Source: a bacterium (GTDB lineage: Bacteria; Patescibacteriota; Patescibacteriia; SG8-24). From it: a stretch of DNA of 45,953 nt. The stretch lies in the NCBI GenBank assembly GCA_023246225.1, contig JAHFIV010000004.1, positions 1 to 45,953 of the forward strand, given 5' to 3'. How positions within the stretch are numbered: position 1 is the first letter of the stretch; each line of letters opens with the position of its first letter. Position numbers and translations under genes: made by a program. A model generated the notes under the pieces. The model was given only the letters and a program-made list of their open reading frames with translations, searched no databases and was not told where the DNA came from. This document shows positions 501-35,257 of the stretch, in pieces.

Positions 501-540
501 CGACGCGCGTTGTACAGTGGTTCCCTAGGAGGAAAAACGA

Positions 541-1799
541 TGCGAAGGTTGATCATGCCTCTCGTTCTCGCGATTACGCTCGCGAGTGTGACGAGCGACA
601 CACCGCTTCCACCCGTACCGCAACCGGAACAACTCCCCGTTGCTTTTATTGGCGCGACTTGTGCCGAAACCAAAGCGCCGCTTTCTGCGATCACTTGGAA
701 TGTTGCGATGGCACCAGGGATGAATCCGATGTACGCCGAGCGGCGCGCACCGATCGCGCGCGTACTGCAGCAGTTGGAGTACGATGTGCTGTGCGTGCAA
801 GAAGCGTGGCTCGACAACGACAAGCGATTACTCACGCTTGCGTCCGGACTTCCACCGGCGAACGTTTTCGTTCATGACACGACAGGTCTTAATGAAGATG
901 AGGAAGATACGTGCAAAAATGTTCCTCTCGATTCGCTCCTTGAGTGCGTGAGTGCGCAGTGCGTGGACGTCGTGAAAGAAGAAACAACGATCTGCGCGAT
1001 AGAGAGATGTCGCGGAGAGTTAAGAAAGGTGTTGGTGCATGATCGGCGTTGTTTGAACTGTCTCGCGTCGCAAGTTGGCGAGGGAGTTGAAACGATTGGG
1101 CACGCATGCGTGCACGGGACTGCATCGCGTATCTACAGCGGACGCAACGGGGTGATGTTGCTCTCTCGGTGGCCACTCACCGATCGCGAAGTCGCATTTC
1201 TTCCGTCATCATATGCGAATCGTCCGGTGCTGCTCGCGCAAGTGCGCGTTCCCGGCATGCGCACCGCTGTTGAAGTCGCGTGTACGCACGTCTCTTCTCC
1301 GCAGCCGATTCCGCCGTTTCATCGGGGATTCGTGACGTGGGAAGACGAGCAGCGTGCGCAAGTGCGCGTTGCTACAGAGCATCTTCTGTCGCGTGCCGAG
1401 GGACGTCCAGTGATTTTCATGGGCGACATGAATTTTGGTGCAGGAAACGGCACGACGGTCGTCGATTATTCGCGCGATGCGTTGGACGATCTGTACGCCG
1501 AAGGATGGAGTGATCCTGCAGCAGGAGCGGTGCCACCGTTTTGCAGCGTGTGTGGCGGGAACACTGTGCGTGGCATCTCTGGCGGTCCGGGGTTTCTCCT
1601 CGATCATATTTTTTACGTTTCTGGATTCCGGCTCGGAGGCCGGAATGACAGAAGAGAGAGTTCGGGAGTGACGCTTCAACCGCTCTGCGTCGATCGCTTG
1701 CTCGATCGCAAGGTCTCCGTGATCGATCACGCTGGACGTGATCGATCAACCAATCTTTCGGATCACTACGCTGTTCGTGTAAAATTCGGCTTTCAATAA
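541..1799 (+). CDS. Secreted EEP-family nuclease/phosphatase
   Basis: ATG after ctaggagg; signal-peptide-like MRRLIMPLVLAITLASV; ITWNVAMAPG, QEAW, MGDMNFG, DHI and SDHY motifs. Confidence 0.8.
1610..1650 (+). repeat. Dispersed palindromic repeat arm located inside the EEP coding sequence
   Basis: tttttacgtttctggattccggctcggaggccggaatgaca is the exact reverse complement of 21668-21708. Confidence 0.9.
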
Positions 1800-4384: not shown

Positions 4385-4489
4385 GACGTTTACTCCTTGG
4401 AAGGAACGGTCTTCTTTGAGCCTAGGGTGGATGGGGCCGAACGTCAACTGGCGGGAAAAAGTACCAGGTACTTTTTCGCATGGGCGGGG

Positions 4490-4602
4490 ACCCAGAATGA
4501 TTAAAAAAAGACCAAACGTGATTACGTTTGGCTTTACGATTCTGGATTTCGCCCCGGATCAGGTCCGGGGTCGGAATGACAGAAGAAGGGGGGCGAAATG
4601 AC
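4490..4602. repeat. Composite palindromic repeat copy C1
   Basis: agaccaaacgtgattacgtttggct core followed by tctggatttcgccccggatcaggtccggggtcggaatgacag. Confidence 0.7.
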
Positions 4603-21646: not shown

Positions 21647-21775
21647 TGTCATTCCGGCCTACCTTTTTGTCATTCCGGCCTCCGAGCCGGAATCCAGAAA
21701 CGTAAAAATAGACCGAACGGAAATCGTTCGGTCTATTTATTTTTCTGGGTCCTGAATCAAGTTCAGGATGACAAA
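21647..21775. repeat. Composite palindromic repeat copy C2
   Basis: tgtcattccggcctccgagccggaatccagaaacgtaaaaa - tagaccgaacggaaatcgttcggtcta - tttttctgggtcctgaatcaagttcaggatgaca. Confidence 0.85.
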
Positions 21776-25723: not shown

Positions 25724-25900
25724 TGTCATTCCGGCCCCTCTTCTGTCATTCCGGCCTCCGAGCCGGAATCCAGAAATATAAAAAAGAAGACCAAACGGAT
25801 TTCGTTTAGTCTTTTTATTTTCTGGATTCCGGATCCCGGTCCGGAATGACATGTTCCGGATCAAGTCCGGAATGACAAAGAGGAAGGCCGGGATGACAAA
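25724..25900. repeat. Composite palindromic repeat copy C3, with extra right-arm copies
   Basis: tgtcattccggcctccgagccggaatccagaaa - agaccaaacggatttcgtttagtct - tctggattccggatcccggtccggaatgaca - ccggatcaagtccggaatgaca. Confidence 0.85.
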
Positions 25901-29123: not shown

Positions 29124-29250
29124 TGTCATTCCGGGCCGTGACCCGGAATCCAGAACGTAAAAAAGACCAAACGAAATCCGTTTGGTCTTTTTATTTCTGG
29201 ATTCCGGCTCGGAGGCCGGAATGACAACAGAGGGGAGGCTGGAATGACAG
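29124..29250. repeat. Composite palindromic repeat copy C4
   Basis: tgtcattccgggccgtgacccggaatccagaacgtaaaaa - agaccaaacgaaatccgtttggtct - tttatttctggattccggctcggaggccggaatgaca ... ggaatgacag. Confidence 0.9.
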
Positions 29251-35101: not shown

Positions 35102-35257
35102 TCATTCCAGACTCCTTTCTTTGTCATTCCGACCCCCGGATCTGATCCGGGGCGGAATCCAGAACGTAAAAAAAGGCCAAACGGATTTCAGTTGGCCTTT
35201 GTATTTCTGGATTCCGGCTCGGAGGCCGGAATGACAAGGAGGGGAGTCGGAATGAAA
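35102..35257. repeat. Composite palindromic repeat copy C5
   Basis: tgtcattccgacccccggatctgatccggggcggaatccagaacgtaaaaa - aggccaaacggatttcagttggcct - ttgtatttctggattccggctcggaggccggaatgaca. Confidence 0.85.

Follow-up and report, generated by a model that had tools for sequence, protein, structure and literature searches.

The 45,953-nucleotide stretch of DNA analyzed here (the window) carries near its start an open-reading frame of 419 codons, from an ATG at 540 to a TAA stop at 1797–1799, whose product matches the endonuclease/exonuclease/phosphatase (EEP) profile PF03372 with 66.1 bits against a gathering cut-off of 24.5. Within this frame, the 41 nucleotides at 1610–1650 are the exact reverse complement of an intergenic repeat, C2, at 21668–21708, as an earlier sequence-only reading had noticed, and the slightly longer arms 1610–1653 and 21665–21708 are 98% complementary. 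The codons from 1617 to 1649 are read as VSGFRLGGRND, and the segment 1604–1656 is predicted to fold into a hairpin of −20.4 kcal/mol. That reading had also proposed that the repeat is translated in frame and leaves the gene open, which is borne out by the uninterrupted frame; the TWN, QE, TH, GDMN, and SDH motifs are retained in alignment with orthologs. The features of the EEP gene and the related intergenic units of the window are collected in the table.

Features of the EEP gene, its in-frame repeat and the intergenic repeat units of the window
Feature	Position	Strand	Evidence or context
EEP gene (PF03372)	540–1799	+	419 aa, apparent signal peptide; Pfam E = 4.9e-18; ortholog alignment
T-tract TTTTTTACGTTT, characteristic of the unit	1609–1620	+	Probably came with the element, replacing about 9 nt of the gene
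33-nt net insertion, minimal reading: TTTCTGGATTCCGGCTCGGAGGCCGGAATGACA	1618–1650	+	11-column gap in both orthologs
REP core, variant CTCGGAGG	1621–1649	+	66 identical copies in the genome
Variant unit: terminator-like hairpin, then longer-stem REP variant	4511–4581	.	
C2-containing unit: a REP, a terminator-like hairpin (21706–21738), and a REP of another type	21668–21774	.	Between convergent genes
Inverted REP pair around terminator-like hairpin	25744–25851	.	Intergenic, between convergent genes
Inverted REP pair around AAAAGACCAAACG/CGTTTGGTCTTTT hairpin	29124–29226	.	Intergenic, between convergent genes
Variant REP, hairpin, REP (35207–35235)	35122–35236	.	Intergenic, predicted convergent gene end

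An in-frame repeat in an EEP gene

Two orthologs of the EEP protein (L032 and L033), both in same-family genomes and 40–42% identical to it, were aligned with MAFFT, and VSGFRLGGRND stands opposite an 11-column gap in both, with EEP homology resuming on either side. The added residues, 360–370 of the protein, sit just after the DHI/VF strand motif. The spacing from DH to Cys is 15 residues in both orthologs, 17 in the upstream paralog, and 26 in the EEP gene, in agreement with the earlier estimate of about nine extra residues relative to the adjacent paralog and amounting to 11 relative to the orthologs. The alignment thus confirms the insertion that had been proposed, as neither ortholog carries the same residues independently of the repeat. 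The genomes searched held no EEP orthologs beyond these two, and since the two are only about 41% identical to the EEP protein, the exact empty site was not seen. A scan of contigs for EEP homologs gave a sole match, from Bdellovibrio, at 26%, and a profile search of the PDB returned weak EEP matches. The single-sequence AlphaFold model had a pLDDT of 33 and was unusable. The open frame suggests that the EEP protein tolerates the insert.

A second EEP gene lies upstream. Its 3′ part, at 1–464 of the window, contains an in-frame TGA and has GDLST where the first gene has GDMNF. At the end of contig C67 (L035) is the 5′ part of an EEP gene which, over ~ 40 nt, matches the start of the window closely but not perfectly; the two may therefore be a single split gene showing strain variation, or two copies.

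A CGTC-type repeat and its terminator-like units

Strict copies of the repeat, of the form CTGGATTCCGG-N4..14-CCGGAATGAC, number 180 (91 + 89) in the host genome (1.12 Mb in 72 contigs), while a reversed-pattern control found 0 copies in the same genome, and GGAATGACA occurs 13 times in the window compared to 0.47 expected. The repeat is far beyond chance, with about 200 copies in total in the genome and 66 copies of each of the two commonest variants. With a looser pattern, 56 relatives yielded 0–22 copies, most having 0 and the highest 22. About 330 kb of sequence around the copies was read, comprising 224 copies, with a few missing and several loci unplaced. At the tagged end the copies show GTC, extended to TGTC in nearly every one (GACA on the opposite strand), and they form an 8-bp stem, ATTCCGGx/xCCGGAAT, that starts with AT and whose eighth pair, next to CCGG, covaries across the 224 copies (C-G in 105, G-C in 104, A-T in 11, and mismatched or G-T in 4). 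The short loop is TCAAG (5 nt) in the 28-nt forms and 6 nt in the 29-nt forms, or 4 nt with an extra G-U pair, and the unpaired tail is CCAG in the large majority, with CCAC and CTAG as minority variants. An Rfam scan of the window returned tRNAs only.

The tag, the stem, and the tail match the published description of the CGTC superfamily of REPs, which includes Neisseria dRS3 and Rickettsia RPE-6 (both CGTC-1) as well as Rickettsia RPE-4 (CGTC-4) and in which a CGTC tag at one end, often replaced by TGTC or CCTC, accompanies a stem of 8–9 bp that opens with AT, a loop of 4 or 5 nt, and an unpaired CCA tail (Di Nocera, De Gregorio, and Rocco 2013, PMC3733652). Members occur mostly as inverted dimers, between genes and near gene 3′ ends, and intragenic copies are on record (PMC3733652). 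The repeat studied here is a REP of this superfamily, given its TGTC tag variant, its 8-bp stem starting with AT, its CCA tail, its inverted dimers with structured spacers lying between genes near 3′ ends, its lack of a dedicated transposase, and its occasional intragenic copies. It differs from the CGTC REPs described in that its spacer is a conserved terminator-like hairpin, in that intragenic copies are very rare, and in its host, a genome of ~ 1.1 Mb that lacks ribosomal protein L30, which was present in 13 of 14 controls; class relatives of the host have genomes of 0.6–1.4 Mb, and both traits would suit a member of the Patescibacteria.

Short inverted palindrome pairs around a spacer, dispersed between genes, are also typical of REPINs and of the GTAG REPs associated with RAYT, from which this repeat differs in having a TGTC rather than a GTAG tag. 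No transposase tied to the repeat was found, and the 3.3-kb locus (L043) of the only Y1/RAYT-like gene (C68:16452–16778) contains no CGTC REP. Mobilization by RAYT was therefore rejected, as the single Y1 gene of the genome has no CGTC REP nearby. A different short palindrome, AAAAAGTACCAGGTACTTTTT, is present at 4461–4471 of the window. KVPGTKQAFGARHQ is encoded by the C-terminal codons of the Y1/RAYT-like gene, and a stretch coding for a similar peptide occurs close to the end of C68, which suggests a separate repeat family tied to RAYT.

Nearly all copies are intergenic, and in the usual arrangement an inverted REP pair surrounds a CCAAACG...CGTTTGG hairpin with A/T tracts, giving a unit of ~ 105 nt. 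There are 83 strict inverted dimers with a median spacer of 45 nt, for example AACGTAAAAAAAGACCAAACG-loop-CGTTTGGTCTTTTTTTACGTT. Five CCAAACG...CGTTTGG hairpins lack a strict REP, and REP-like sequence is present beside each of them, indicating that the hairpin belongs to the unit. Folding of entire units gives z-scores from −8.7 down to −11.6, and several spacer hairpins are terminator-like by pattern scans. In the RNAalifold consensus of the dimers the two REPs pair with one another and the spacer stays single-stranded, a result probably due to poor alignment of the spacer arms, and the spacer hairpins were assessed one by one rather than from that consensus. Two low-copy relatives (G046 and G049) carry the REP without the CCAAACG hairpin unit, so the REP-hairpin-REP unit looks lineage-specific.

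In the stretches around copies, 50 of 59 convergent gaps held copies; among unidirectional gaps the figure was 52 of 163, and among divergent ones 4 of 41. Since these stretches were picked around copies, the window is a fairer sample of gap types, and in it a strict copy was present in four of nine convergent gaps and in none of the 35 others. The unit is bidirectional-terminator-like and concentrated at convergent gene ends, where it would presumably act as a terminator. Some units are mixed dimers, in which the opposite arm belongs to one of at least two further types of REP, GTCATCCTGAACTTGATTCAGGACCCAG or the long-stem GTCATTCCGACCCCGGA...TCCGGGGCGGAATCCAG, as at 21730–21774, at 35122–35165, and at several other loci. 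Head-to-tail REP arrays with a 40-nt period (CTGGATTCCGGGTCACGGCCCGGAATGACAGAGAGGCGAG) were found at the ends of contigs C68 and C34 (L128 and L095), and such arrays probably break the assembly.

Origin of the EEP copy

To place copies relative to genes, gene calls came from a home-made codon-model prediction, not from standard annotation; a survey of stop-to-stop ORFs was set aside as spurious antisense frames dominate it. By these calls, two of the 224 copies lie entirely within predicted genes and the other 222 do not, and the EEP copy is the sole one deep inside a gene. It is also the sole one of the 224 with neither a hairpin nor a second REP 5′ of the REP. The second intragenic copy (C46:2084, L100) ends a SpoU methylase-like protein as its C-terminal tail, where the REP-derived residues SFRPPSRNPEN are followed by a stop codon just past the REP and the Pfam domain ends earlier.

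Almost all REPs come after T-tracts, and in the EEP gene the ATTTTTTACG tract stands beside the REP. Across the 330 kb (both strands) there are 15 instances of TTTTTTACGTTT, each of them (15/15) just 5′ of a REP. The 9-mer TTTTTTACG is rare in coding strands, with seven instances in 256 kb, counting the one in the EEP gene. At the insertion site the orthologs have GC-rich codons (GTG CTG CTT CGG and GTG CTT TTC CGG) compared to ATT TTT TAC in the EEP gene. Taken together, these observations indicate that the T-tract most likely came with the REP, and as this tract is typical of the unit, the EEP copy is most likely half a unit. A REP arm can occur apart from the CCAAACG hairpin, as the two REPs at C44:1564 and C46:2084 follow unrelated terminator hairpins. 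We consider it likely, therefore, that a half-unit CGTC REP insertion replaced about 9 nt of the gene for a net gain of 33 nt and 11 residues and has persisted in frame. A half unit of about 42 nt, T-tract plus one REP, would have entered the gene once, through a recombinational or transposition event, displacing those nucleotides and adding the 11 residues after the DHI/VF strand motif. The frame would have survived because the net change was +33 nt, and the insert would persist through keeping the frame and leaving the catalytic motifs untouched, selection presumably having retained the in-frame outcome. No target-site duplication is visible at the insertion.

Nearly all other copies sit in whole units, as would be expected if a complete REP-hairpin-REP unit of ~ 105 nt had entered and its left half had later been deleted with the frame restored, but this route is possible rather than probable, as no remnant of a left REP or hairpin lies upstream of 1609. 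It is rather unlikely that a precise 33-nt REP (TTTCTGG...GACA) inserted directly 3′ of a pre-existing TTTTTTACG because the element prefers T-tracts. A 33-nt insertion corresponds to exactly 11 residues and fits the length as well as the half-unit model does, and T-tracts precede almost all REPs, including the two behind unrelated terminator hairpins; however, the rarity of TTTTTTACG in coding strands and the restriction of TTTTTTACGTTT to REPs speak against a tract that was already in place, and the ortholog codons at the site offer no T-tract.

The persistence of the half unit could also mean that the EEP gene is non-functional or decaying, with a frameshift still to come, since the in-frame TGA and GDLST of the adjacent paralog fragment suggest that the EEP cluster may be decaying. 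We regard this as doubtful for the gene itself, which is open over all 419 codons, keeps all motifs, and scores as coding. The preserved frame and intact gene would equally suit an added peptide co-opted to give the nuclease a new property, yet this is very improbable for a lone deep case in the genome, and the identity of the EEP REP to 65 other genome copies gives no sign of peptide adaptation. An assembly artefact at the 41-nt repeat is hardly credible: the 72-contig draft does have several contigs that end in or near these repeats, but across a false join the protein family and the reading frame would not both carry on, so the EEP homology flanking the insert makes a chimera unlikely.

Comparison with Rickettsia and implications for the repeat family

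As with the Rickettsia palindromic elements (RPE), a palindromic repeat read in frame has added a peptide to an ordinary protein. The parallel drawn in the sequence-only reading stands for the kind of element, which belongs to the superfamily of RPE-4 and RPE-6, and for this event, and fails for the habit of invading ORFs: many ORFs of R. conorii carry such elements, whereas the 224 copies surveyed here include a single deep insertion and a single C-terminal tail. The EEP insertion is well explained by known biology as an intragenic CGTC REP, and is a clean new instance of a known phenomenon. With it, an apparent Patescibacteria-type genome joins those known to host intragenic CGTC REPs; no paper was found by a text search of the literature for repetitive extragenic palindromic sequences together with Patescibacteria. 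It also puts a figure on the rarity of such events in one genome outside Rickettsia, where 1 copy in 224 lies deep within a gene, a rarity that is the expectation if most insertions are purged.

The terminator-centred unit is the broader and less expected finding, and it offers a lead on how REPs that lack a transposase are kept, namely as presumed gene-end terminators. Tentatively, the unit may be a dispersing, non-autonomous bidirectional terminator that has reached ~ 100 sites of a minimal genome and stops transcription between many pairs of convergent genes, in which case the EEP copy would be a rare mis-targeted half unit and the REP arm would be mobile without the terminator.
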